Assembly: GCA_031267935.1 (NCBI GenBank)
Contig: JAIRYD010000021.1
Span: 1 to 36,646, forward strand
Origin: Tannerella sp.
GTDB lineage: Bacteria > Bacteroidota > Bacteroidia > Bacteroidales > Tannerellaceae
DNA: 36,646 bases
Direction: 5' to 3'
Below the pieces are notes generated by a model. The model had not been told where the DNA came from and searched no databases. It saw only the letters and a list, made by a program, of their open reading frames with translations. Of the stretch, positions 1,244-36,399 are shown piece by piece; positions within the stretch are counted from its first letter, which is position 1; every line of letters starts with the position of its first letter. The translations under genes and the position numbers were made by a program.

Positions 1244-2833
1244 TCATTTCCTGGACACATTGATTTCGTACAGCGGTATGCGTTCGCAGGCGTTCGGCGG
1301 GTGGATGCGCAGGATGTGCGTCACGGTGGGCGCCACTTCCGTCGCTTTCACTTCGCGGTAGATGCGCTGCGGCGCGAGGCCGTTTCCCATGAAAATGAGC
1401 GGGGTCTGTACGACGTTGCTGCGCGTGTGCCTGACCTGCTCTCCGGGGCGGTCGTTGTGAATCGCCCATCCGGGCTGCAGGCTGATGATCAGGTCGCCGC
1501 GGCCGATGTGATAGGTGCCGTGCTGCAGTTTTTCCGTGCCTTCGTTCCACGTGCCCGCGCGCAGGGTCATGTCGGTGGTGACGTGTGCCACGCCGCTGAA
1601 TTCCGACAGGAAGTCGGCCGCTTTCCGTTGAAATGCGGCCAGATCCAGCTTTTCCTCCTCCACGGCTTTGCGGTTGAGATATATCTGGTTGTCGTAGAAT
1701 CCGTTCACCCAGGTTTTCTGGCCGTAGAGCGCCATGAGATACATGTTCAGCAGCGCCGTGCAGCGGGCGGGATGAAATTCGCCGCCGGCAAGCGACATTC
1801 CCCGCGGATATTCTTCTTCACTCTCGAAATAGCCTGTGCCGGTGAAGACTACAAGCGTGTTCTTGAGTCCCACCTTCCGGTCGACGGCGTTCAGCAGTTC
1901 GGCGATGTCGCGGTCCAGCTGGACATAGGTATCCTGAATTTCAGCCGTATACTCTTCCGTTTTGTTGCCGGAAAAATTTCCCGCATAGTACGTGACGGCA
2001 AGCATGTCGGGACACGGGCGCGTGCCGAAGGCGCCGTATTCGAGAAATTGAAACACGAGCCGGTTCACCTCCCTGTTGCCGAAGGGCGACGTCTTGATGC
2101 GCGGAAAGCAGTCCAGCGTCCTGGGTTTGAAGGTATAACTGAACGGCGGGCGTTCCGTCACGTAGGGCAGCGTCCTGTAACGGTCGGGCGGAAAAGTCGG
2201 TTGCCATGTCATGCCGGCCATTCGTGCTGTCAGCGACTCCTGTCCGTTATTGTATTTCTCGACATACCACGGGATATTCTTGTAATACGTCGTCGTGGCC
2301 CATTTTCCGTTCGTATTGTCGATCCAGAAAGCGCCGTTGGCCGCATGTCCGGCCGAGAGGATGGCGCTCTCGGCGTCGGGCGCAACGGCATATACTTCGC
2401 TGCGACCTTTGGAGGCAATCTTCAGTTCGTCGCCGACGGTCGAGGCCAGCAGGTTTTTCGGCGAATAGCTGTCGCGCGTAAAATTCCCCGGATGATCGGG
2501 ATCGTACAGCGAAGGCAACTCTTTCAACGTTTCAAAACTGTATGTCGACCGGCCCGTAATTCCGTGCGCACTGGGATTGGCGCCGGTAAACAGCGTCGCA
2601 AAAGAGCTCGCCCGGTCCACGGGAGAAAACTCGAACTCGATATTGTGATACACCACGCCTTCGTTCATCAGCCGTTTGAAACCGTCTTCGTCGAACATCT
2701 GGTGGAAATATTCCAGATAATCGCCCCGCAACTGGTCCACAGTAATATATACCACCAGTTTGGGAACCTGCCGCTGTGCCTGCAGACCGGCCGCAACCAG
2801 TACGGCGATCCACGAAAATATGATCTTTTTCAT
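1244..2833 (-). CDS. Alkaline-phosphatase-fold protein, probable pseudophosphatase
   Basis: 529 residues with a signal peptide (about 1-20) and then the alkaline phosphatase superfamily fold of the PafA type. It starts PKLVVYITVDQLRGDYL, with the first metal-site Asp at D33, and later has SAGHAANGAFW and the final TEVAPTVTHILRI segment. Compared with my memory of PafA, the other active-site residues are missing. The nucleophile Thr position is R74. The Lys and Arg positions are D153 and E155. The DYVGH metal ligands read YYAGN (Y282, N286), and the DHG pair reads T333-G334. The protein is secreted to the periplasm or cell surface, but probably does not hydrolyse phosphate esters. It overlaps the upstream DUF4105 gene by four bases (ATGA), which implies one operon and coupled translation. 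The fold is clear; the physiological role is unknown. Confidence 0.85.
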   Translation of the reverse strand: MKKIIFSWIAVLVAAGLQAQRQVPKLVVYITVDQLRGDYLEYFHQMFDEDGFKRLMNEGVVYHNIEFEFSPVDRASSFATLFTGANPSAHGITGRSTYSFETLKELPSLYDPDHPGNFTRDSYSPKNLLASTVGDELKIASKGRSEVYAVAPDAESAILSAGHAANGAFWIDNTNGKWATTTYYKNIPWYVEKYNNGQESLTARMAGMTWQPTFPPDRYRTLPYVTERPPFSYTFKPRTLDCFPRIKTSPFGNREVNRLVFQFLEYGAFGTRPCPDMLAVTYYAGNFSGNKTEEYTAEIQDTYVQLDRDIAELLNAVDRKVGLKNTLVVFTGTGYFESEEEYPRGMSLAGGEFHPARCTALLNMYLMALYGQKTWVNGFYDNQIYLNRKAVEEEKLDLAAFQRKAADFLSEFSGVAHVTTDMTLRAGTWNEGTEKLQHGTYHIGRGDLIISLQPGWAIHNDRPGEQVRHTRSNVVQTPLIFMGNGLAPQRIYREVKATEVAPTVTHILRIHPPNACERIPLYEINVSRK

Positions 2834-4062
2834 CGCATGCTTTCTTTAATTCTTGTCCAACCGTATCCCGACCTCAGCAACAGACTTGCTATCAGCGGAA
2901 CAAAAGCCGCGTTCAGATGCTGCGGCACGAAAATCCATCCCGCCGACATCACCAGAAGCGCTGCAAAATTAATACAATGGTAGTAATACGCCGCTTTGTT
3001 AAGTTTTTTTACGGCAAAGCACATCACCCCCGCGAGATGAAACGGATGCAGCCATACGACGGAGATATTGGGCCATATCCCCCGGTGCACGGACACGAAG
3101 CAGAGGAAATAAAGAATGCACCCGGCCAGTCCGGCCAGCGTAAACAGCAGCATGTCAAACCACCTGAAATACTTCTTCGCGCGCCGCTCCGCGATCGTCA
3201 CCCCCGCCGCAAGGGCGAAAATCAGGCCGGCGCACAGCCCCGGCGTAAACGCACCGTGCGCCGGCTCGCCGTCCGGCTCGTCATCCGGCACGGCGTCTAC
3301 CACGGCGGCGGCGGCCGACACCAGCGGCGTCGAAACACCGCCCTCACGCACAATCCGCGCGCGGGCAAAAACATTCTTTACGTTTTCGGGCAGAAAAAAC
3401 GTTTCCTCCCGCGTCATCACTCTGTCGGCAGGCATGCCCAGCACCAAATCACATCCGAACGTGAGCCACGGATGATTTCGCGTGCACCGGTTAATCGCCT
3501 CGCGAAAAGTGGTTTTTCCGACGTATTCCTCATATTCGACGCGCCCGGCGACGATGCGCGCCACCAGTGCGGCAGGACGCGTCGAGCAGTTGTCGTAGAA
3601 GAAACTGTAACGATACACGCAGTTTTCGGGCTGCGCGTTGACGACAAGCGCCCGGAAGAGCGCGTTTTTCTCATCCGTCCGAAGATTCAGTACCTGCTCG
3701 TACACTTCGCTGCCGCGCATCTGATAATCAATCAGAAAATCCCCGTACCTGTTTACGCCCAGCATATAATCCGTTTCTCCCTTCGTGAAGCGATAGATGA
3801 AATTCGGTTTCGAAAAGTCGAAAAGGCCGTAATTGAACACGTAGTCGATGCCCGTGGTGTCGCGGACGCGCAGCGCCGTATGCCCGTAAAGCGTATAAAC
3901 GGTCCCGTCGCTCGGCGAGCAGGTCAGCAGACTGACTTGCGCCTTGTCACTCAAGATATTCTGCGCCTGCGACGATACACACAAGACAGAAAACAACAGG
4001 AGCGGAATCTTTTTCCACCACCGGTTTTCCGCCCCGAACCGAAATATTTCGAATGTCCACAT
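2830..4062 (-). CDS. DUF4105 (Lnb N-terminal domain) membrane protein
   Basis: 410 residues. A hydrophobic export signal lies around residues 17-33 (KKIPLLLFSVLCVSSQAQ). A soluble domain of about 200 residues follows, with the two conserved marks of DUF4105: YGHTALRV (H61) and FFYDNCSTR (C159). The C-terminal part, about residues 265-400, has several hydrophobic helices, so the protein is probably held in the inner membrane with its domain in the periplasm. His before an Asn-Cys pair recalls permuted papain-like (NlpC/P60 or LRAT type) enzymes, but this is only an analogy. No better in-frame start exists near the signal peptide. A TAnnTTTG promoter lies about 40 bases upstream. It is the first gene of a two-gene operon with the phosphatase-like protein. 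Confidence 0.85.
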   Translation of the reverse strand: MWTFEIFRFGAENRWWKKIPLLLFSVLCVSSQAQNILSDKAQVSLLTCSPSDGTVYTLYGHTALRVRDTTGIDYVFNYGLFDFSKPNFIYRFTKGETDYMLGVNRYGDFLIDYQMRGSEVYEQVLNLRTDEKNALFRALVVNAQPENCVYRYSFFYDNCSTRPAALVARIVAGRVEYEEYVGKTTFREAINRCTRNHPWLTFGCDLVLGMPADRVMTREETFFLPENVKNVFARARIVREGGVSTPLVSAAAAVVDAVPDDEPDGEPAHGAFTPGLCAGLIFALAAGVTIAERRAKKYFRWFDMLLFTLAGLAGCILYFLCFVSVHRGIWPNISVVWLHPFHLAGVMCFAVKKLNKAAYYYHCINFAALLVMSAGWIFVPQHLNAAFVPLIASLLLRSGYGWTRIKESMR

Positions 4063-4102
4063 TTGCCTGCAGTTAAGTTAAAATAATGATTGATACGGCT
4101 GC

Positions 4103-4110
4103 CAAAGGTA
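4103..4110 (-). promoter_or_regulatory. Bacteroidota -7 box for the DUF4105 operon
   Basis: On the minus strand the sequence reads TACCTTTG, an exact match to TAnnTTTG, about 40 bases before the start codon at 4062. The -33 element is weak (TTTTCG about 18 bases upstream). Confidence 0.6.
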
Positions 4111-4161
4111 AGCCTTTTTGTTTGATTGCGAAAATTATCGGCCGATTCTTTTTCTTACACC

Positions 4162-4238
4162 CCCGACAGCGAACCGTCCCTCGCGAATATTCGGCCGAAG
4201 CGCCGCGTCATGACGCACGAGGGCGTATCGCCGTCGGG
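4162..4238. other. Nested inverted repeats in a divergent intergenic region
   Basis: The gap 4063-4364 separates the divergent DUF4105 operon and coaX. It holds nested complementary arms. CCCGACAGCG (4162-4171) pairs with CGCCGTCGGG (4229-4238), and CCCTCG (4178-4183) pairs with CGAGGG (4218-4223). Inside are the small palindromes CGAATATTCG (4184-4193) and GCGTCATGACGC (4205-4216). It could be a structured RNA, a regulator-binding region or a remnant of a palindromic element. Nothing else recognisable is in this gap apart from promoters. Confidence 0.5.
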
Positions 4239-4364
4239 TATCATATCGCTTTATCAGGGTAAAGACTGACAAATATTGCGGAAAAAAACATATTCATAGA
4301 ATAAAAAGTATGTTTTTCCGTCTTTTTTGCTTTTCTTTGCAGCGCGATTTAAAGACGAGAAATT

Positions 4365-5093
4365 TTGAACTTGATTGTAGAACAGGGAAATACGGCGTTA
4401 AAATTAGCTGTTTATCAGCATGATGAATGGATAGACACGGTTGTATGCAAAACATCCGGAATGCCGGAACTCGATTCGTTGTTTGAGCGGTATCCGCTGG
4501 AAAACGGCATTCTTTCCACCGTGAAGGAACCTGATAAGGCATGGGCAAATATTTTGTCGCGCAGGTTGAAAAGATTTATTTTCTTTGATGATTCAGTCAG
4601 ATTACCGCTGGAAATTGACTACCGGACGCCCGGCACGCTGGGCAAAGACCGGATTGCCGCAGCCGCAGCCGCTCATTATCTGCATCCGGAAAGTGACGTG
4701 CTGGTGATCGACGCGGGCACGGCCATCACCTACGAAGTGGTGGAAGCTTCGGGCCGCTACGTCGGCGGAAACATTTCGCCCGGACTGACAACCCGTTTCA
4801 AGGCGTTGCACCGGTTCACGGAAAAGTTGCCGCTTGTGGAGGAAACCCCGCAAGTGCCGCTGACAGGCACGGACACGGAAAGCGCCATCATTGCAGGTGT
4901 CGTGAACGGGATCGTGTATGAGATGGATGGACATATCAATGCCGTACGGGCGGTCTATCCCGGCATTTTTGTTTTTTTAACGGGTGGTCATTCGTTTTAT
5001 TTTGAAAAACGACTTAAAAACGCCATCTTTGCAGCAATTAATTTAGTATTGACCGGATTAAACAGGATATTAGAATATAATGTTGAAAGATAA
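4365..5093 (+). CDS. coaX: Type III pantothenate kinase
   Basis: 242 residues. CoaX phosphorylates pantothenate, the first step of coenzyme A synthesis, in the cytoplasm. The ASKHA-fold marks are present: N-terminal NLIVEQGNTALKLAVY (phosphate loop; the EQGNT form is usual in Bacteroidales), VIDAGTAITYEVV around D116, GGNISPGL near residue 134, and the late TGGHS motif. Length is normal for the family. The start is a TTG codon, chosen because NLIVEQGNT must be at the extreme N-terminus and no ATG precedes it. It is the first gene of a plus-strand run, and its end overlaps the next gene by 14 bases. A possible promoter (TTTCTTTG near 4332) is imperfect. Confidence 0.93.
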   Translation: MNLIVEQGNTALKLAVYQHDEWIDTVVCKTSGMPELDSLFERYPLENGILSTVKEPDKAWANILSRRLKRFIFFDDSVRLPLEIDYRTPGTLGKDRIAAAAAAHYLHPESDVLVIDAGTAITYEVVEASGRYVGGNISPGLTTRFKALHRFTEKLPLVEETPQVPLTGTDTESAIIAGVVNGIVYEMDGHINAVRAVYPGIFVFLTGGHSFYFEKRLKNAIFAAINLVLTGLNRILEYNVER

Positions 5094-6318
5094 CAGATTA
5101 AAGATTATTGTATATTTGTTTCTGTGTACGAACATGTGCCTGTTTGCGCAGAATAGCACCAATTCGCCCTACACGCGCTACGGTTATGGAGCGCTGGCAG
5201 ACCGGTCGTTCGGCGCCGGTCGTTCGATGGGAGGAATCGGCTACGGACTGCGTTCGTCGCGACAGATCAACCCGATGAATCCCGCATCATACTCATCCAT
5301 GGATTCGTTGACATTCCTGCTGGATGCGGGCGCCACGTTCCAGCTCTCGTGGTTCGACGACAACAACAACAGACAGCGCAACATGAACGGTAATTTCGAA
5401 TACGTAGCCATGCAGTTCCCGTTGACGCGCAAACTGGCGGTGAGCGTCGGACTTCTGCCGTATTCGCATGTAGGATACAACTTCGGCGCATATTCGGAAG
5501 ACGGCCCTGGCAGTCTGGTTGAATATTCGGGCACGGGCGGATTAAACGAAGTGTACGCCGGACTGTCCGCAGATATATGGAAAAAACGTCTGGCATTCGG
5601 CGCCAACATAAGTTATCTGTTTGGAAATGTCGACCACAGGCGGCGCATTACGACTTCCAATATAATGTATACGATGAAAAAGGTAGAAGTACACGACATG
5701 AAATTCGATCTTGGCGTGCAGTATACGCATCCGCTGACCCGGACCGACCGCATGACTTTCGGCGCGGCATATTCGCCCGGAAAGAAACTGAGCGCGACGG
5801 CGTATGACCTGATTTCGTTCGACCAGTATTTCAGTTCCCTGGCCCAGGCGGATACATCGCGGAATGCAGGCTTCGACATCCCGGCCACGTATGGACTGGG
5901 CGTCACGTATACGAAAGATTATAAAATGATTCTGGCGGCAGACGTGTCGTATCAGAACTGGGCGAATGCACACTATTTCGGCAGCAACGAAAACTTTAAG
6001 AACCGCGTCAAGGTCGCTTTGGGCGCCGAATATATCCCTAACAATTTCACGCGGGCATACATGAGCCGGGTTCGCTATCGCGCCGGACTGCACTACAACA
6101 GTTCCTATCTGAAAATAAAAGATGCCGGATACAATGAATTGGGCGCAAACCTGGGACTGGGATTTCCGATGCTGGACAACCGTTCGTTTATCAACGCCTC
6201 GTTCGAATACGTCAAGGTCGTTCCCGACTCGAAAACGCTCATAAACGAGCAGTATTTCCGTTTCACGCTCAGCTATACGTTTAACGAATTTTGGTTCTTC
6301 AAACTGAAAATGGATTAG
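5080..6318 (+). CDS. Outer membrane beta-barrel protein
   Basis: 412 residues with a signal peptide (about 1-24, ending LFAQ). The mature protein begins NSTNSPYTRYGYGALADRSFGAGRSMGGIGYGLRS and continues as alternating hydrophobic and polar strands. It ends in a terminal strand rich in aromatics (EFWFFKLKMD). This is the pattern of a FadL/OmpP1-like or related barrel of Bacteroidota, for which I do not know a substrate. It follows coaX with a 14-base overlap and precedes the TPR protein by 52 bases. Its position in a run with lptC and a periplasmic chaperone is consistent with a role in envelope biogenesis, but that is inference. Confidence 0.8.
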   Translation: MLKDNRLKIIVYLFLCTNMCLFAQNSTNSPYTRYGYGALADRSFGAGRSMGGIGYGLRSSRQINPMNPASYSSMDSLTFLLDAGATFQLSWFDDNNNRQRNMNGNFEYVAMQFPLTRKLAVSVGLLPYSHVGYNFGAYSEDGPGSLVEYSGTGGLNEVYAGLSADIWKKRLAFGANISYLFGNVDHRRRITTSNIMYTMKKVEVHDMKFDLGVQYTHPLTRTDRMTFGAAYSPGKKLSATAYDLISFDQYFSSLAQADTSRNAGFDIPATYGLGVTYTKDYKMILAADVSYQNWANAHYFGSNENFKNRVKVALGAEYIPNNFTRAYMSRVRYRAGLHYNSSYLKIKDAGYNELGANLGLGFPMLDNRSFINASFEYVKVVPDSKTLINEQYFRFTLSYTFNEFWFFKLKMD

Positions 6319-6370
6319 CGGACATGTTTTTTTGAATGATAAATATTAATTTTTTTAAAGTTACAGAGAT

Positions 6371-7735
6371 ATGAAAGTCAAAGGATTCTTGTTAGTTGCC
6401 GGTTTATGTGCAACGATGATGAGTGCAAATGCACAGAAAGGAGTAGACAACGGTACCCGTTTCGGTTCGGGCGCGGACAGCATTCGTTGTTTGGAAAACG
6501 TCAGCCTTGCAACGTCTTACGCTAAGGTGGATAATTTTAAGGATGCGTATCCCTTTTGGAAAATCGCATACGACGAATGTCCTGCCGCAACCAAGGATTT
6601 GTATCTGTACGGAGTACGCATTGTGAACTGGCAGATCTCGCAGGAAAAAGACCCTGCCGGAATATCAGCCCTGATAGACGATTTAATGGGCGTGTATGAC
6701 AAACGCGTCAAATATTTCGGCGACGATCCGAGATATGGCAAAGACTGGATTGTAGCCCGCAAGGCACAGGATTATATGCGATTGAAAGGCGAAACCGCCG
6801 ACGCGAACACGCTCTACGGCTGGCTGGACGAAGTCGTCGCGGAATACAGGGAAAAAACCGACCCGCTGGCCGTTTCGCTATATATGTTCGCTTCGCTCAA
6901 AAAGATGAGTACGGACGAAAACCACAAAGGCAAATATGTCGAAGACTTCCTGTCCTGTTCGGACATTTTCGACAAGCAGATGGCCGTTGCCAAAACGGCC
7001 AACGACAGCAAGGAACTGGCCGCTCTTGAAGTGATGAAGAGTGATATCGAAAGAAACTTTGCAGCCAGCGGCGCAGCAGACTGCGCCACGCTGGAAAGTA
7101 TTTACGCAGATAAAATCGACCGGAACAGGGACGACATCAAATTCCTGAAAGAAACGCTCGTGCTGCTCAGAAGGGTCAGATGTCAGGACAGCGAAACATT
7201 TTTCAAGGCATCGGAATATGCCCACCGCATCGAACCTTCGGCCGAATCGGCGCTGGGTATGGGCAAGCAGGCCGTGAAGAAAGACGATCTCGAAATGGCT
7301 GAAAAATACTTCCTGGAAGCAGCCGAGATGGCGACGGAAGGCGACACGAAAGGCGACATCTTCTATACCATCGCATTAATCGCCAGCGATCAGAGGAACT
7401 ACTCTAAATCAAGACAATATTGTATGAAAGCAGTAGAAGCCGATCCCACGAACTGCGCACCTTACATCCTGATCGGCAAGATGTATATCAACACGGCAAA
7501 CAGCGTATACTCCGACGATCCGGTTCTGCGCAAGTGCGTATACTATGCCGCAGTCGACAAATTCAGCAAAGCGCGCCAGACGAACGAATCCTGTGCAAGC
7601 GAAGCCACCCAGCTGATGAACCAGTACAGCGCGTATTTCCCGACGACGGAAGAAATATTCATGCACCCCAACCTGAAAAAAGGGGAGGCCATCACTGTCG
7701 GCGGCTGGATCGGCGAACGCACGATCATAAGATAA
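6371..7735 (+). CDS. Exported tetratricopeptide-repeat protein
   Basis: 454 residues with a clear signal peptide (MKVKGFLLVAGLCATMMSANAQ). The rest is helical. TPR-like units are visible around residues 295-400, for example ALGMGKQAVKKDDLEMAEKYFLEAAEMA and the following IFYTIALIASDQRNYSKSRQYCMKAVEADP. These repeats usually mediate protein-protein contacts, so this is probably a periplasmic scaffold. The C-terminus (KKGEAITVGGWIGERTIIR) follows the last helix and carries no known sorting signal. It lies between an outer membrane protein and lptC, 8 bases before the latter, so it is probably co-transcribed. Confidence 0.85.
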   Translation: MKVKGFLLVAGLCATMMSANAQKGVDNGTRFGSGADSIRCLENVSLATSYAKVDNFKDAYPFWKIAYDECPAATKDLYLYGVRIVNWQISQEKDPAGISALIDDLMGVYDKRVKYFGDDPRYGKDWIVARKAQDYMRLKGETADANTLYGWLDEVVAEYREKTDPLAVSLYMFASLKKMSTDENHKGKYVEDFLSCSDIFDKQMAVAKTANDSKELAALEVMKSDIERNFAASGAADCATLESIYADKIDRNRDDIKFLKETLVLLRRVRCQDSETFFKASEYAHRIEPSAESALGMGKQAVKKDDLEMAEKYFLEAAEMATEGDTKGDIFYTIALIASDQRNYSKSRQYCMKAVEADPTNCAPYILIGKMYINTANSVYSDDPVLRKCVYYAAVDKFSKARQTNESCASEATQLMNQYSAYFPTTEEIFMHPNLKKGEAITVGGWIGERTIIR

Positions 7736-17016: not shown

Positions 17017-17116
17017 CAGGGACGATTTGTCCGGTTTCGTTTGAAAAACTTGTTCCATAAAACGGTAAACAGTCGGAACAAGGCAGGTCGTGATGATAAC
17101 AAAAGTACTTACAGTT

Positions 17117-20100
17117 ATGAAATTCAATGATATACTGACAAAACTGTTCGGAAACAAATCCGAACGCGACCTGAAGGAGATTCTTCCTTATGTGAAAAAT
17201 ATAACGGAAACATATCCTTCCATCAAGGCGCTTACAAACGATGAATTGCGTGCTAAAGCGCAGGAAATAAAAATGTACGTGGTGGACTACGTCAAAGAGG
17301 AACGGCAGCGTATCGATGAGTTGCGTAAAGACATCGACGACAAGGAACTGGAAGAGCGCGAAGCCATTTGGGCGGAAGTAGACAGAATCGAATCCAAAAT
17401 CACTGAAAAATTCGAAACCGTGCTCGACGAAATGCTGCCGCAAGTATTTGCCATCATGAAAGATACGGCGCGACGGTTTACCGAGAACGCGCATATCTCC
17501 GTCACGGCAAACGACTTCGACCGCGACCTGGCTATCAATCACGATTTTCTCAAAATTGAAGGCGAGCAGGCCGTATATTTCAACCACTGGATTGCAGGCG
17601 GAAACGAAACAGTCTGGGACATGGTGCATTACGACGTGCAGCTGATCGGCGGCGTAGCCCTTCACAAGGGTAAGATTTCCGAAATGGCGACGGGCGAAGG
17701 GAAAACACTCGTGGCAACCCTGCCCGTATTTCTGAATGCATTGACCGGCAACGGTGTACATATCGTGACGGTCAATGACTATCTCGCCAAACGAGATTCC
17801 GAATGGATGGGACCGCTGTATATGTTCCACGGCCTGTCGGTCGACTGTATTGACAGGCATCACCCCAATTCCGACGAACGCCGCAAGGCTTATAATGCAG
17901 ATATTACGTTCGGTACGAACAACGAATTTGGTTTCGACTATCTGCGCGACAATATGGCCGTCAGCCCGAACGATCTCGTGCAGCGCAAACACAACTATGC
18001 CATTGTAGATGAGGTTGACTCCGTGCTGATCGACGACGCACGTACGCCTTTGATCATCTCCGGTCCCACGGCAAAAGGCGAAGAGCAGTTGTTCGATGAA
18101 TTCCGCTCGAATGTGGAAATCGTCGTCGATGCACAAAGGAAACTGTGTACCAAATTGTTGGTCGAATCCAGAACAAAAATGGCCAGCAACGACAGCAAGG
18201 TACAGGAAGAAGGTTCGCTGCTGCTCTACCGCTCGTTCAAGGGGCTGTCGCGCAATAAGGCGCTGATCAAGTTCCTGAGCGAATCGGGCGTCAAAACCAG
18301 CATGTTGAAAACGGAAGAGTTCTACATGCAGGACAACATGCGCAACATGCACCTTGTCACTGACGAACTCTATTTCGTCATCGACGAGAAAAACAAGAGT
18401 ATTGAACTGACGGACAAGGGCATTGACCTGCTGACGGGAAAATCGGACGATCCCACTTTCTTTGTCCTTCCCGACATTGCATCCGAATTGTCGCAAATCG
18501 ACGCCCAAACGAGCGATGAAACGGAAAGACAGGTAAAAAAAGATGATCTGCTGACGAACTATTCCATTAAGAGCGAGCGTGTCCATACCGTCAACCAGCT
18601 GCTGAAAGCCTACACGCTGTTCGAACGCGACGACGAATATGTCGTGATCGACGGGCAGGTGAAAATCGTCGACGAGCAGACCGGCCGCATCATGGAAGGC
18701 CGTCGCTATTCCGACGGATTGCATCAGGCCATCGAAGCCAAGGAACGCGTGAAAGTCGAAGCCGCCACACAAACGTTTGCAACCATTACGCTGCAAAACT
18801 ATTTCCGTATGTATCATAAGCTTGCAGGCATGACCGGTACCGCCGAAACGGAAGCCGGAGAGTTTTGGAACATCTATAAGCTGGACGTGATTGTGATTCC
18901 GACCAACCGCCAGATTGCGCGTACGGATATGAACGACCGCATCTACAAGACGAAGCGCGAGAAATACAATGCCGTGATCGACGAAATCAGTGCGCTGATT
19001 GCTGCCGGCCGGCCGGTGCTCGTGGGGACAACTTCCGTGGAAATATCGGAATTGCTGAGCCGGATGCTGAACATGCGGAAAATAAAACACAACGTTTTGA
19101 ATGCCAAACTGCACCAGCGCGAAGCCGAGATTGTGGCACAGGCCGGTCAGACGGGTACCGTCACGATCGCCACGAACATGGCCGGCCGTGGTACCGACAT
19201 CAAACTCTCGCCGGAAGTGAAGGCTGCCGGAGGGTTGGCCATCATCGGTACGGAACGTCACGAAAGCCGGCGCGTGGACAGACAGTTACGCGGTCGTGCA
19301 GGCCGCCAGGGCGACCCGGGCACGTCCGTGTTTTTCGTTTCGCTCGAAGACGATCTGATGCGTCTTTTTGCCTCCGAACGGATCGCGGGACTGATGGACA
19401 GAATGGGTTTCAAGGAGGGCGACGTGCTGGAACACAGTATGCTGAGCAAATCCGTGGAACGTGCGCAGAAGAAAGTGGAAGAAAACAATTTCGGCATACG
19501 CAAACGTCTGCTCGAATACGACGACGTCATGAACTCGCAGCGTAACGTGGTGTATACCCGCCGCCGGCATGCGCTGATGGGCGAACGGATCGGACTGGAT
19601 GTGTTGAATACGCTCTACGATTCGACGGCCGCGCTGATGGAACAGTATGCCGAGGGAGGCGATTACGAAGATTTTAAAATGGACCTGTTCCGCACGCTGG
19701 CGATAGAATCGCCTTTCACGATGGAAGAATTCAGGGAAACGAAGTCGAACAAAATGAGCGAAGAACTGTTTGATGAAGTCCTGAAACAATACAAGCGCCG
19801 CCAGGAACGCATGGCGCAGATCGCCCAGCCGGTTATCAGACAGATATATGAAACCCAGGGCTCCATCTACGAAAATATCCGGATTCCGATCACCGACGGC
19901 ATACGGATGTACAACATCGCGTGCAACCTGAAAGAGGCATACGAAACACAGTCGAAAGCGATTGTAAAGTCGTTCCAGAAATCCGTCACGCTGCATACCA
20001 TCGACGAAGCCTGGAAGGAGCATCTGCGTGAAATGGACGAACTGCGCCATTCGGTACAAAACGCAAGCTACGAAAACAAGGACCCGCTGCTTATCTACAA

Positions 20101-20437
20101 GCTGGAATCGTACAATCTGTTCAAAATCATGATTGAAGACATGAACCGGAAAACCGTGTCCATCCTGATGCGCGGACAGATTCCTGCACGTGAAGAAGTG
20201 CAGGTGCGTCAGGCCACTCCCGAACGCCGCGCCGACATGAGCCGTTACCGCACGGAAAAAAGCCAGTTCGGTTCCGACAGGGGCGGCAGTAATCCCCTGC
20301 TGCCCAAGCCGCCGACAGGCCCCCAGCAACCACAGCGCACGGAACCTGTCCGCGCCGAAAAACGCGTCGGACGCAACGATCCCTGTCCTTGCGGAAGCGG
20401 GAAGAAATACAAGAACTGCCACGGGAAAGGCTTGTAA
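17117..20437 (+). CDS. secA: Protein translocase ATPase SecA
   Basis: 1106 residues from the ATG at 17117; an in-frame ATG at 17090 would add nine residues unlike SecA. SecA is the motor that drives preproteins through SecYEG. Visible parts are the Walker A loop ATGEGKT (193-197 for GEGKT), [15 protein letters not shown], the [13 protein letters not shown] helicase box near 298, and the GMTGTAETE and [10 protein letters not shown] motifs of the second ATPase lobe. Also visible are the helical scaffold and the C-terminal zinc-binding SEC-C motif, [18 protein letters not shown]. At 1106 residues it is about 200 longer than E. coli SecA, as usual for Bacteroidota. It seems to be its own transcription unit, followed directly by a repeat array. 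Confidence 0.97.
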
Positions 20438-20475
20438 GGGGAGCCGGAGGTAAAAGATTCAAGATTTAAGGTTTT

Positions 20476-20811
20476 GTAGCCCGCGGCTTTTGTAGTGTAG
20501 CCCGCGGCTTTTGTAGTGTAGCCCGCGGCTTTTGTAGTGTAGCCCGAAGCTTTTGTAGTGTAGCCCGAAGCTTTTGTAGTGTAGCCCGAAGCTTTTGTAG
20601 TGTACTCCGAAACTTCCGGAGCGTGCTCCGGAACTTCCGGAGCGTGCTCCGAAACTTCCGGAGCGTGCTCCGAAACTTCCGGAGCGTGCTCCGAAACTTC
20701 CGGAGCGTGCTCCGAAGCTTCCGGAGTGTGCTCCGAAACTTCCGGAGTGTGCTCCGAAACTTCCGGAGCGTACTCCGAAGCTTCCGGAGCGTAGCCCGCG
20801 GCTTCCGCGCT
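20476..20811. repeat. 21-bp tandem array, sixteen units
   Basis: Sixteen head-to-tail units of exactly 21 bases begin 39 bases after secA. The first six read close to GTAGCCCGCGGCTTTTGTAG plus T. Units 7-15 read close to GTGCTCCGAAACTTCCGGAG plus C. The last unit is a hybrid of the two. In the second type GCTCCG and CGGAGC pair both within and across units, making a chain of hairpins. The period equals that of the array at 621-830, and the CCCG..GG.TT core is similar. Heptapeptide frames on both strands are a by-product of the 21-base period. Confidence 0.9.
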
Positions 20812-20865: not shown

Positions 20866-20964
20866 GTCAGTTCAGTTCATCGTTCAAAGTTGATCGTTCA
20901 TCGTTCAAAGTTGATCGTTGATCGTTCAAAGTGGATCGTTCAAAGTGGATCGTTGATCGTTCAT
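20866..20964. repeat. GATCGTTCA-type short repeat cluster
   Basis: Repeated words GATCGTTCA, TCATCGTTCA and AAAGT(T/G) alternate over about 100 bases. On the other strand they read GAACGATGAAC and GAACGATCAACG, the same vocabulary as the elements at 25269-25364 and 36291-36399. With the 21-bp array, this fills most of the 736-base gap between secA and the porin. The remaining bases up to 21030 hold nothing I recognise. Confidence 0.7.
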
Positions 20965-21173: not shown

Positions 21174-22481
21174 GTGATGAAAGATATGAGGATTGTTCTG
21201 GTGATCGTGTTTTCGGTCGTGTGTCGTGCCGTGCCGGCGCAGGAGGCTGTGCGGGCGGAGGTGGGCGACAGTCTCGTGCCGCGTCCGGCGCTGACGCTGG
21301 GGGGCTACGGGGAGGTGGCGTATACGCGCAATTTCTACAGCGGCAGCCCGTTTCGCTACATGAAGCCGGAGTCGCAGAAGGATGCGCCCGGTCACGGACG
21401 GTTCGACATGCCGCACGTGGTGTTCTTCGCGGGCTACGATTTCGGGCGCGGCTGGCGCATGAGTTCGGAGATAGAGTTTGAACACGGGGGCACCGAGTCG
21501 GCCATGGAAGTGGAGGCGGAGGAGGGCGGCGAGTACGAGCAGGAGGTCGAACGCGGCGGCGAAGTCGTGCTCGAACAGTTCTGGATCGAGAAGACGATCA
21601 GCCGCGGGCTGAACATTCGCGCCGGACATCTGATCGTGCCGGTGGGACTGACGAACGGCAATCATCTGCCGACGCAGTTTTTCACCGTCTACCGCCCCGA
21701 AGGCGAGCGCACGATCCTGCCCTGCACGTGGCACGAAACGGGCATCAGTCTGTGGGGACGGCTGGGCGCGTGGCGCTACGAGGCGATGCTTCTCCCGGCG
21801 CTCGACTCCGAACTGTTCGGCAGCGACCGCTGGATCGGCAATGCTTCGGCCTCGCCCTACGAATTCCGGATCGCCAACAGGTATGCGGGTGCACTGCGCG
21901 TCGACAACTACTCCGCGCCCGGCCTGCGGATGGGCGTGAGCGTCTACTACGGCGAAAGTTTCCGCAACAGTCTGATGCCTTCTTATGCCGAAAAATACGA
22001 CCGCGTGAAAGGCGCCGTAAGCATCGGCAGCTTCGATTTCGAATACCGCGGCCGCGCACTGACGGCTCGCGGATATTTCGACTACGGTCATCTGAGCGAC
22101 GCCATGAACATCTACGCCTACAACCGCAGCCTGCCCAACCAGTCGCCCTCGCCGCGCACCGCCGTCGCCTCCGCCGCCCTCGCTTCGGGCGTGGAAGCCG
22201 GATACGACGTCTTTACCTTCGTGCCCGCCCTGGCCGCGCGGCACGCCGGAATGTATCTCTTCGGACGCTACGAATACTACGACTCGATGTACGAAACGCC
22301 CGGCGGCATGCCGGACGAAAAATGGTGCGCACGACAGCGTATCGTCGTCGGACTGAACTACTTTCCGACAGGCGACGTCGTGGTCAAGGCCGAATACGGC
22401 GTCTCGCTGCTCGAAGCGCCCTTCAACCACGAACCCGGCCTCTCCATCGGCATCGCCTATGCCGGCTTCTTCACCCGATAA
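21174..22481 (+). CDS. Outer membrane porin (OprO/OprP-like)
   Basis: 435 residues with a signal peptide (about 1-23). The mature part begins LTLGGYGEVAYTRNFY, and further strands follow the porin pattern, such as IEFEHGG, EQFWIEKTISRGLNIRAGHLIVPVGLTNGNHLP and the last strand GLSIGIAYAGFFTR ending in aromatic-x-Arg. It resembles the phosphate-selective porin O/P superfamily, which in Bacteroidota covers barrels of many specificities. An acidic insert at about 114-130 (EVEAEEGGEYEQEVERGGE) probably forms a surface or pore loop and could attract cations. It is first in an operon with an imelysin and a di-heme cytochrome, so the cargo is more likely to be metal-related than phosphate. That is inference. 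Confidence 0.8.
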   Translation: MMKDMRIVLVIVFSVVCRAVPAQEAVRAEVGDSLVPRPALTLGGYGEVAYTRNFYSGSPFRYMKPESQKDAPGHGRFDMPHVVFFAGYDFGRGWRMSSEIEFEHGGTESAMEVEAEEGGEYEQEVERGGEVVLEQFWIEKTISRGLNIRAGHLIVPVGLTNGNHLPTQFFTVYRPEGERTILPCTWHETGISLWGRLGAWRYEAMLLPALDSELFGSDRWIGNASASPYEFRIANRYAGALRVDNYSAPGLRMGVSVYYGESFRNSLMPSYAEKYDRVKGAVSIGSFDFEYRGRALTARGYFDYGHLSDAMNIYAYNRSLPNQSPSPRTAVASAALASGVEAGYDVFTFVPALAARHAGMYLFGRYEYYDSMYETPGGMPDEKWCARQRIVVGLNYFPTGDVVVKAEYGVSLLEAPFNHEPGLSIGIAYAGFFTR

Positions 22482-22502
22482 CAAACACAACACAATAATT
22501 AA

Positions 22503-23678
22503 ATGTACACACAAATGAAAACATTCAAACTCACCCTCTCCATGCTGCTCGCCGCCATGCTGGCCGGCAGCGCCGTTTCCTGCAGCGACGACGGCGAAGA
22601 AATCAACCCTCTTGAAGAAAAGGACGCCGCCCTCGCCCCCGTTATCCCGCAGTACGTAAACAACACCGTCATCGTGACCTACAAAGCGCTCGCCGACGCC
22701 ACCATCGACCTCTGCGAATCGCTGCTCGAACTGCGCGAAGACAAAACCCAGGCACGCCTCGAAGCCGCCGCCGCCGCGTGGATCACCACACGCGTCTACT
22801 GGGAACGAAGCGAAGCCTTCCTCTTCGGCGCCGTGGCCGACTTCGGAATAGATCCCCATATCGACACCTGGCCGCTCGACGAACCCGCCTTCGTCAACAC
22901 CCTGAACAGCGCCGGCTTCATCGAAAGCATGTCGGGCGACGACGGCGACGTCTGGGTGGCCGAACACCTGGGCTACTCGCTGCTCGGCTTCCACGGCATC
23001 GAATACATCCTCTTCGAACAGGGACACGCCAAAAACGTCGCCTCCATCACCGACAGCGAACTGATCTACGCCACCGCCGTCGGCGGCGACCTGCGCAACC
23101 AGTGCATCCGCCTCGAAGCCTCGTGGGCCGGCATCGACAACGTCACCGCCTTCAAACGCGACCTGATCGAAGACCTCGAACTCGTCATCATGCCCACCAA
23201 CAGCACCATCTCCTACGGCGAAAACATGCTCGCCGCCGGACAGCCCGGCAGCACCTACCGCACCGTCACCGACGCCGCCGTAGCCATCCTCGAAGGATGC
23301 CTCACCATCTCCACCGAAGTAGGCGAAGTGAAAATCGGCACCTCGTACAACAAGGAAGACGAAGACTACATCGAATCGCCCTACAGCTACAACTCGAAAA
23401 CAGACTTCATCGACAACATCCAAAGCATCGCGAACGCCTACCTCGGCGGCGCCGACGAAACACGGCGAGGCCCCTCCGTCAGCGACTACGTGAAAGCCAA
23501 AGACGCTTCGCTCGACGAAAAAGTGCGCACCTCCATCCTCGAGGCCATCGCCAAAATCGACGCCATACCCCATCCCTTCGCCATCAACTACGCCTCCCCG
23601 CAAGCCGGACAGGCCATGGACGCCTGCGCCGAACTGACCGCCGCCCTCGAAGAAGCAAAAACACTGCTGCAGCAGTAA
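22503..23678 (+). CDS. Imelysin-family (IrpA/peptidase M75-like) lipoprotein
   Basis: 391 residues, or 387 from the second ATG at 22515. The lipobox AVSC places the acylated Cys at about residue 27. The imelysin marks are VYWERSEAFLFG near residues 97-108 and the GFHGIEYILF segment containing GxHxxE, the family's conserved metal-site-like motif. The late NAYLGG and SDYVKAKD segments are also typical. Although named after a peptidase, most imelysin-like proteins are thought to take part in iron acquisition. It lies between a porin (21 bases upstream) and a di-heme cytochrome (27 bases downstream), an arrangement comparable to the imelysin and thiol-oxidoreductase clusters of proteobacteria. 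Codons are strongly C-ending. Confidence 0.88.
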   Translation: MYTQMKTFKLTLSMLLAAMLAGSAVSCSDDGEEINPLEEKDAALAPVIPQYVNNTVIVTYKALADATIDLCESLLELREDKTQARLEAAAAAWITTRVYWERSEAFLFGAVADFGIDPHIDTWPLDEPAFVNTLNSAGFIESMSGDDGDVWVAEHLGYSLLGFHGIEYILFEQGHAKNVASITDSELIYATAVGGDLRNQCIRLEASWAGIDNVTAFKRDLIEDLELVIMPTNSTISYGENMLAAGQPGSTYRTVTDAAVAILEGCLTISTEVGEVKIGTSYNKEDEDYIESPYSYNSKTDFIDNIQSIANAYLGGADETRRGPSVSDYVKAKDASLDEKVRTSILEAIAKIDAIPHPFAINYASPQAGQAMDACAELTAALEEAKTLLQQ

Positions 23679-23705
23679 ACCCCTCACACCTTTCTACTGA
23701 AAAAA

Positions 23706-25208
23706 ATGAAAAAAAGCAACCTCCCTCTCATCTGTCTGCTCGCCGCCGCCCTCACCGCATGTGAAAGCGGCGGCAGCGGCAGCGGACCCGAACCACTGCC
23801 CGACAACCTGTCGGAAGAATACTATGCCGGCGGCAAACTGGGCACCGTATTCAACCGCACGCCCTTCGCCTACCAGCTGCCCGCACCCGCCGTCGAGGAA
23901 CAGGGCCTCGCCTACGACTTCCAGCTCGGCGAAGCCTTCTTCGAAAAAGAATTCAACACCAATCAGACCGGCACCCGCCGGGGACTCGGACCCGTCTCCG
24001 TACGCAGCTCCTGCATCACCTGCCATCCCGGATACGGACACGGCAAACGCATGGACCGCTACCGCGCCAACGACTTCGGCAACGGATACCTGCTGGTCGT
24101 CACCGACGAAAACGACAACTACGTCTCCACCCTCACCGGCATGCCGCAGCTACAGGCCGTCGCTCCCTTCCTCCCCCCCATAGACGAAACAGGCATACGG
24201 ATCGAATGGAAACAGCACGTGGACGAATACGGCAACACCTTCCCCGACGGAGAAAAATACAACCTCACCTATCCCGACGTCACCATCCCGCGCGAATCAT
24301 TCCACGTCCCCATGCCCGACTTCTACAAAGTACGCCTGGAAGCCACCATCGGCATCTACGGCACAGGACTGATCGACGCCATCCCCGACGACTCCCTGCT
24401 CGCCCAGTACACCCGCGAAAAAAACCTCGGACTCCCCCTGAACGACGCCAAATACCAGCCCGAAAACTTCATCCGCGAAGCCGACGGAACCGCACACCCC
24501 GGACGGTATACCTACGGACTCACACGCGGCACGCTGCAAAACGGACCCGGCGCCAACGCCATCTGGAACATCACCAACGTCACACGCTCCAACCGGCGCT
24601 ATCACTACATCACCGACGCCTACGCCCGCGCCATGGCACAGCACGAAAACGTCCGACAGACCCTCGGCAAAGACGAAGCCACGATCTACGCCGAACTCAT
24701 GTCCACCGAACTGCCCGTCGAAATGAGCGACGAAGACTACGTCGAATTCATGGTCTGGCATCGCGGACTGGCCGTCCCCGCCGCACGCGACCTCGACGAC
24801 CCCGACGTGCAGAAAGGACGTACCGCCTTCCACGAAATCGGCTGCACGCTCTGCCACCGGCCGGCATGGACCACCGGCGACGACCGGTATACCGGCGACC
24901 CGCTCGTAGCCGGCAAACTGCCGCGCTACCCGAACCAGAAAATATGGCCCTACACCGACCTCCTCCAGCACCGCCTCGAAATGGTCAACGACATCCGCAC
25001 CGGATGGTGCCGCACAACACCCCTCTGGGGACGGGGACTCTCCGAACAGTGCACCGGCGCCGCCGAACATCTGCACGACATGCGCGCACGCAACTACACC
25101 GAAGCCATCATGTGGCACGGCGGCGACGCAAAAAACGCAAAAGAAAAATTCCGCAGCCTCACGAAAGAAGAACGCGACGCCATCCTGCGATTCCTCGAAT
25201 CAATCTGA
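23706..25208 (+). CDS. Di-heme cytochrome c / di-heme oxidoreductase (DUF1111-type) lipoprotein
   Basis: 500 residues with a lipobox LTAC (Cys about 19). Two c-type heme sites are visible: CITCH at residues 103-107 and CTLCH at 380-384. The C-terminal part carries the family block PLWGRGLSEQ, HLHDMRARNYTEAIMWHGG and then ERDAILRFLESI. It resembles the MauG-like or thiol-oxidoreductase di-heme proteins often found beside imelysins. It would act at the periplasmic or outer face of the envelope as an electron carrier, peroxidase or metal reductase/oxidase. The sequence does not decide which. It is the last gene of the operon and is followed by a strong terminator. Confidence 0.88.
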   Translation: MKKSNLPLICLLAAALTACESGGSGSGPEPLPDNLSEEYYAGGKLGTVFNRTPFAYQLPAPAVEEQGLAYDFQLGEAFFEKEFNTNQTGTRRGLGPVSVRSSCITCHPGYGHGKRMDRYRANDFGNGYLLVVTDENDNYVSTLTGMPQLQAVAPFLPPIDETGIRIEWKQHVDEYGNTFPDGEKYNLTYPDVTIPRESFHVPMPDFYKVRLEATIGIYGTGLIDAIPDDSLLAQYTREKNLGLPLNDAKYQPENFIREADGTAHPGRYTYGLTRGTLQNGPGANAIWNITNVTRSNRRYHYITDAYARAMAQHENVRQTLGKDEATIYAELMSTELPVEMSDEDYVEFMVWHRGLAVPAARDLDDPDVQKGRTAFHEIGCTLCHRPAWTTGDDRYTGDPLVAGKLPRYPNQKIWPYTDLLQHRLEMVNDIRTGWCRTTPLWGRGLSEQCTGAAEHLHDMRARNYTEAIMWHGGDAKNAKEKFRSLTKEERDAILRFLESI

Positions 25209-25268: not shown

Positions 25269-25364
25269 TATACTGTGCGCGGCAAGGTTTTGTGAACGAT
25301 GAACTATGAACTATGAACGATGAATCCGGTCATCGTTCATCGTTCATCGTTCATCGTTAAACTG
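25269..25364. repeat. Interspersed GAACGATGAAC element, copy at 25.3 kb
   Basis: It starts TATACTGTGCGCG, continues through iterated TGAAC(G/T)A words, and has a palindromic centre: GAACGATGA (25315-25323) pairs with TCATCGTTC (25330-25338) around ATCCGG. It ends CGTTAAACT. The copy at 36291-36399 has the same start, centre and end. It lies between the convergent di-heme and queF genes. Confidence 0.8.
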
Positions 25365-30834: not shown

Positions 30835-31026
<192 letters not shown>

Positions 31027-36290: not shown

Positions 36291-36399
36291 TATACTGTGC
36301 GCGATGTGGTTTTATGAACGATGAACGATGAACGATGAACGATAAACAATGAATCCGGTCATCGTTTATCGTTCATTATTTATTGCTCATCGTTAAACT
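36291..36399. repeat. Interspersed GAACGATGAAC element, copy at 36.3 kb
   Basis: Same organisation as 25269-25364: TATACTGTGCGCG, then four TGAACGA words, the centre GATGAATCCGGTCATC or close to it, inverted TTATCGTTCAT words, and CGTTAAACT at the end. It shares no coding capacity with its flanks. Confidence 0.8.

Follow-up and report, generated by a model that had tools for sequence, protein, structure and literature searches.

The gene at positions 1244 to 2833 of the stretch analysed here (36,646 nucleotides, referred to as the window) appears to encode a secreted pseudoenzyme derived from PafA-type phosphatases. Judged from genomics, its most likely role, by a modest balance of probability, is that of a non-catalytic partner of Lnb in lipoprotein N-acylation. 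We found that the phosphatase site has been lost while the fold is conserved and under purifying selection, that the gene is coupled and in places fused to the Lnb gene, and that it lies next to Lnt in family f10. The coupling to Lnb is absent from the first-pass annotation of this DNA and is probably what matters most.

The open reading frame proposed in that annotation is real, and we add that it lies on the minus strand (2833..1244). It has an ATG start and encodes a 529-aa protein with a PafA-type fold. The protein is the sole match in its own genome (2.84 Mb, 240 contigs, 99.8% complete), and therefore no second, active PafA is detectable there by this query. Its nearest named relatives are from Tannerella sp. 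metagenome assemblies (84%), followed by Parabacteroides. It belongs to the type I phosphodiesterase/nucleotide pyrophosphatase superfamily (PF01663, 82.7 bits, cut-off 23) and scores 306.3 bits with the NCBIfam PafA model NF042991, under the 650-bit cut-off of that model. PafA 5tj3 was the closest solved structure by sequence (HMMER, E 4e-58). Residues 1-19 (2777..2833, minus strand; ..LQA|Q) form a signal peptide, MKKIIFSWIAVLVAAGLQA, read as being cleaved before Q. It lacks a lipobox, has Gln at +1, and appears to be of the signal-peptidase-I type; the mature protein is presumably periplasmic. A19 and Q20 are almost invariant, with Q20 found in 87% of the diverse set. Elsewhere in the window, 7-bp arrays (TGAACGA / TCATCGT / ATGAACG type) were found at 25293-25358 and 36314-36353 and an (AG)25 dinucleotide run at 30948-30998. 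Genes for an imelysin (PF09375) and a di-haem oxidoreductase (PF06537) follow a 435-aa protein with no Pfam match at 21174-25208, and are likely an iron-related set.

An AF2 model built with 51 sequences (mean pLDDT 87.7, pTM 0.88) matched PafA 5tj3 in Foldseek (E 4.9e-43, TM 0.78). VIA-align overlaid the model on PafA with a Z score of 48.3 and an rmsd of 3.8-3.9 Å over 488-489 residues (29% identity); the next match was SPAP/PhoK with a Z score of 39. The alkaline-phosphatase fold is therefore well kept, as had been proposed from the sequence.

The active site was mapped, in PafA numbering, with HMMER against PafA 5tj3 and with a 131-row MAFFT alignment. The ten residues followed include the Thr nucleophile (T79), the Lys/Arg pair that binds phosphate (K162/R164) and six metal ligands. 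The title of PafA structure 5too names T79, N100, K162, and R164 as mutated. Only one of the ten is kept in the pseudo-phosphatase, D33 (PafA D38; 2735..2737, minus strand, as are all codons given here), whereas substitutions are found at the nucleophile, at both residues that bind phosphate and at five of the six metal ligands. HMMER and the alignment place R74 (2612..2614) at the nucleophile position T79 and D153 and E155 (2369..2377) at K162 and R164; by alignment, R95 (2549..2551) is found at N100 and V467 (1433..1435) at H486. T333-G334 (1832..1837) stand at D352-H353, where T or S followed by G is the usual state in the pseudo clade. The first-pass annotation had described nearly all catalytic and metal residues as replaced with D33 left over, and had named the changes of Thr to R74, Lys/Arg to D153/E155, and Asp-His to Thr-Gly; all of these agree with the alignment, in which nine of the ten residues are gone. 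Two of its readings need correction. PafA DYVGH (D305-H309) pairs with NFSGN (N286-N290; 1964..1978; HMMER and alignment), giving D305 to N286 and H309 to N290, and not with YYAGN, which begins four columns earlier. The late His thought to survive, H469, is two columns from the H486 position, so that no metal His is left. The columns at least 90% conserved in PafA and yet lost in the pseudo clade include nine of the ten active-site columns. We infer that the pseudo-phosphatase no longer hydrolyses phosphoesters.

A match to the protein was present in 57/59 genomes of the window's family (f1, which we read as Tannerellaceae), and in 90/148 genomes of the order and 88/198 of the phylum, the latter two counts including true PafA. 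The tree contained 112 rows, after 19 close rows of L002-L030 were dropped from the 131, and was built with the ten key columns removed. In this tree the 86 Bacteroidales rows form one clade (SH-aLRT 99), and the site is lost in 84 of them. The 26 rows outside this clade are true PafA, and each of them retains all eight of the catalytic and metal residues compared (T79, K162, R164, D305, H309, D352, H353, and H486); the pattern is therefore not due to chance. In the full set, clade B (79 rows) kept T79, K162, R164, D352, H353, and H486 in 0/79 rows each, D305 in 2, H309 in 1, N100 in 29, and D38 in 73. Clade A (26 rows) includes two intact members, L058 and L066, and its other members keep 0-5 of the ten residues. 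None of 32 further loci added later is intact. In four genomes (G177, G137, G060, and G115), the degraded gene coexists with an intact PafA. The placement of L058 and L066 within clade A is not firm. A single clade of all degraded rows was not rejected by the AU test (56 rows, p 0.528), and that constrained tree was slightly better; parallel site losses, as suggested by two intact members inside a degraded clade, are therefore not claimed. A homologous fold with catalytic residues lost across the Bacteroidales orthologues makes this a conserved pseudoenzyme family, as the first-pass annotation had suspected. As for the relatives with an "SxFAT" variant that it mentioned, close relatives read ASAFAT.

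Lnb (DUF4105) is the lipoprotein N-acyltransferase of Bacteroides (Armbruster et al., 2024, PNAS), as cited in the accessible parts of PMC13103446, PMC12994826, and PMC12345273. A Lnb homologue (2830..4062, minus strand) lies directly upstream of the pseudo-phosphatase gene and is the sole 5TMH_Lnb match in the genome. Its Pfam scores (PF13387, PF25221) are 82.7 bits for Lnb_N and 147 bits for 5TMH_Lnb, both above the cut-offs; against the NCBIfam equivalog NF051878 it scores 362.8 bits, below the cut-off of 550. According to the ORF coordinates, the Lnb stop and the pseudo-phosphatase start overlap by 4 bp (2830..2833, minus strand), and the two genes are possibly translationally coupled. Lnb His61 (3880..3882, minus strand) and Cys159 (3586..3588, minus strand) are invariant (140/140 and 142/142, respectively); the loss of the site is thus confined to the pseudo-phosphatase. 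When the surroundings of the operon were scanned for promoters and terminators, 3 promoter-like sites were found vs. 2.0 expected, i.e., no signal.

The usual order in related loci is Lnb - pseudo-phosphatase - SecA. Among loci with at least 450 bp of upstream DNA, Lnb was found directly upstream in 67/78 clade-B loci, compared with 0/25 for clade A and 0/25 for PafA. The 67 linked loci span 16 family codes, and the exact 4-bp overlap occurs in 21 clade-B loci. Among the 11 clade-B loci without Lnb upstream, Lnb is elsewhere or undetected in 7, and the other 4 are deep-branching rows. A second sample (80 loci, partly from the same genomes) gave Lnb upstream in 69/77 and SecA downstream in 69/76. 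At a locus without adjoining Lnb (L031), a 695-aa sulfatase-fold protein (4417-6504, minus strand; PF00884, 124.6 bits) is encoded directly upstream of the pseudo-phosphatase.

In 6/61 genomes of family f38, from 5 genera (G095 and G418, with identical proteins, G432, G426, G410, and G415), a single continuous ORF (898-932 aa) encodes both Lnb and the pseudo-phosphatase. Pfam detects Lnb_N, 5TMH_Lnb, and Phosphodiest in this single chain. Three loci (L136-L138) are unfused: a stop codon and a gap of 3-6 bases separate the two genes. The former signal peptide is retained at the fusion junction; after the five helices, this sequence would take the chain back across the membrane and so place the phosphatase part in the periplasm. 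An Ala-Gln site follows the internal signal sequence in four of the five distinct fusions, and signal peptidase may therefore still separate both parts. Cleaved or uncleaved, the fusion yields Lnb and the phosphatase part one to one.

Lnb and Lnt, the classic, unrelated enzyme for the same step, are mutually exclusive in most genomes: among 62 genomes, 33 had Lnb only, 22 had Lnt only (over the cut-off), 6 had both, and 1 had neither. The six with both over the cut-off are G086, G115, G124, G174, G193, and G067. In the window's genome, a single Lnb is present, and Lnt gives no match above the cut-off. The accessible part of PMC12994826 describes repeated displacement of DUF4105/Lnb by Lnt in three genomic contexts, and that part mentions no phosphatase. 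In f10, the order Lnt-DUF6122-pseudo-phosphatase was found in 3/3 genomes of one genus; this pseudo-phosphatase belongs to clade A and carries EATSYHKSHY at the ten positions. At L235, a 602-aa frame (3895-5703) matches Lnt plus DUF6122, a possible fusion of those neighbours. Fourteen of the clade-A genomes examined for Lnt carry it. At L252 it lies 4.6 kb upstream of the pseudo-phosphatase. In G131 and G145 the two share a contig at distances of about 14 and 18 kb, respectively, and in the remaining eleven they are on different contigs.

As the mechanism of a Lnb partnership, we propose that the pseudo-phosphatase and Lnb would be made from one operon and that the former would bind to the periplasmic side of Lnb. 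There it might hold the substrate (diacyl-lipoprotein or phospholipid) in place or pass it on; alternatively, it might stabilise or regulate Lnb. A broader version, which we put forward only tentatively and rate below an even chance, is that the dead PafA serves as a non-catalytic subunit of whichever acyltransferase ends lipoprotein maturation in Bacteroidales, Lnb or in some lineages Lnt. The two proteins would then be an enzyme-pseudoenzyme pair, and the recurrent Lnb fusions, in which a five-helix membrane enzyme is joined to a phosphatase-fold domain in the periplasm, would be YejM-like in layout by convergence.

The protein could instead have a general binding or scaffolding function in the envelope (glycans, lipids, or assembly of the outer membrane) that is mechanistically unconnected with acylation, the operon being simply inherited. 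Many clade A members adjoin genes for M14 peptidase, PcrB, GldD, and GldE, as such a role would allow, and clade A lost the site without an adjoining Lnb. With kinship ignored, 5TMH_Lnb was present in 18/18 clade-B genomes of the sample and in 14/26 clade-A genomes. Since the other 12/26 have no 5TMH_Lnb match at all, Lnb is not necessarily required for the role, and the loss in clade A suggests that the non-catalytic role predates the Lnb operon. Lnb can likewise exist alone, as 5TMH_Lnb was found in 9/58 genomes of the order without a match to the window protein (kinship ignored). We nevertheless think a general scaffold unlikely. Sixteen families retain the Lnb-gene-SecA order. Outside the window's own family, protein identity to the window is mostly 33-48%, and the genes further out differ between families; the repeated fusion to Lnb and the Lnt adjacency in f10 also speak against such a role.

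The chief rival to a partnership with Lnb is a Sec-linked role, in which the pseudoenzyme would sit on the periplasmic side of the translocon and aid folding or export through Sec, with SecA/Sec as the partner and Lnb a mere operon neighbour. SecA is directly downstream in 67/78 clade-B loci, as often as Lnb is upstream, and linkage alone therefore does not favour Lnb. At four loci (L036, L115, L119, and L123) SecA stays where Lnb has moved away. In a distance-matrix co-evolution test (80 loci of 90 after near-copies were dropped), the partial r of the pseudo-phosphatase with Lnb given SecA was 0.47 (0/2000 permutations as high), vs. 0.66 with SecA given Lnb; the distance correlation thus does not single out Lnb. 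However, SecA is cytoplasmic, whereas the pseudo-phosphatase is secreted. SecA is no longer the neighbour in the window, L069, and L074, all of which keep Lnb; in the window, secA is displaced to 17090..20437 on the plus strand. The fusions found are with Lnb (the search covered Lnb fusions), and SecA is downstream in 0/24 clade A and 0/25 PafA loci. We consider a Sec-linked role rather improbable. Arrays of a 21-bp unit occur at both ends of the broken pseudo-phosphatase/secA neighbourhood: 9.5 copies at 624-822, downstream of the pseudo-phosphatase, and about 16 copies at 20475-20807, directly after secA, with more at 20874-20964.

Continued catalysis by a rearranged or metal-free site would be consistent with the retention of D33 in most clade-B rows and with the conserved new residues T333-G334 at the old site. 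Against this, the nucleophile, the phosphate-binding pair and five metal ligands are gone, and the nucleophile position varies freely in clade B (Q, R, E, K, G, A, C, and I). In a set of 31 diverse pseudo-clade rows, chosen of 73, no new His, Cys, Asp, or Glu indicative of an alternative metal site was present among the columns at least 85% conserved ("new" meaning different from the commonest residue of PafA). It is very improbable that the protein is still an enzyme.

Purifying selection was observed on the inactive protein. The NG86 dN/dS of the pseudo-phosphatase was 0.005-0.123 in ten close pairs, and that of the neighbouring Lnb gene was 0.083-0.190 in the same pairs; the pseudo-phosphatase value was below that of Lnb in 10/10 computable pairs, which share sequences (an eleventh pair was saturated). 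With dN/dS this low, something other than catalysis is being kept. Gene decay toward loss, which the variable residues at the former active site might suggest, is contradicted by this selection (dN/dS 0.005-0.12), by retention in nearly all family genomes, and by 36 columns invariant over 23 diverse rows, and we give it almost no credence. The selection for a non-enzymatic envelope role that the first-pass annotation proposed is well supported by the family-wide loss, the kept fold, the purifying selection and the signal peptide with its Ala-Gln site; binding or scaffolding is a possible form of that role.

How Bacteroidota triacylate their lipoproteins became clear only when Lnb was discovered in 2024. 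The conserved secreted pseudoenzyme encoded in the Lnb operon, in some genomes as one polypeptide with Lnb, offers a direct and testable candidate for a second component. In annotation practice, labels of "alkaline phosphatase PafA" in Bacteroidales can mark proteins without a phosphatase site, and phosphorus-cycling gene counts in gut metagenomes are affected if the key residues go unchecked. Pseudoenzymes as such are already known; the new part is the Lnb genomic context. A literature search, which covered few subscription papers, found no recognised residue-lacking PafA family or Lnb-linked pseudo-phosphatase, and the Lnb paper may mention one. According to the accessible part of PMC8812569, a PafA survey kept only ORFs with the key residues (423 isolate ORFs; genome bank n = 468), so that residue-lacking homologues had already been met; that part does not describe the dropped homologues as a family.

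Compared with known systems, the pseudo-phosphatase resembles PafA of Elizabethkingia (5tj3, 5too), the ancestral type, in its full-length fold, secretion and superfamily, and differs from it by the replacement of nine of ten active-site residues and a score of 306 of 650 bits. Lnb is encoded by an adjacent, overlapping and sometimes fused gene and presumably acts in the same step, but its fold, a permuted NlpC/P60 according to the accessible part of PMC12994826, is unrelated to that of the pseudo-phosphatase, and it keeps its His and Cys. YejM/PbgA/LapC of enterobacteria carries an alkaline-phosphatase-superfamily periplasmic domain on a five-helix membrane part. The likeness to YejM is by analogy: this domain is used there in the regulation of envelope lipid synthesis, and the Lnb fusions are similar in layout. 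The pseudo-phosphatase is not a member of that family, scoring 9.6 bits with NF038282 (cut-off 825 bits). YejM differs from it in being a metalloenzyme, as it is called in the accessible part of PMC7576196, that regulates LpxC.
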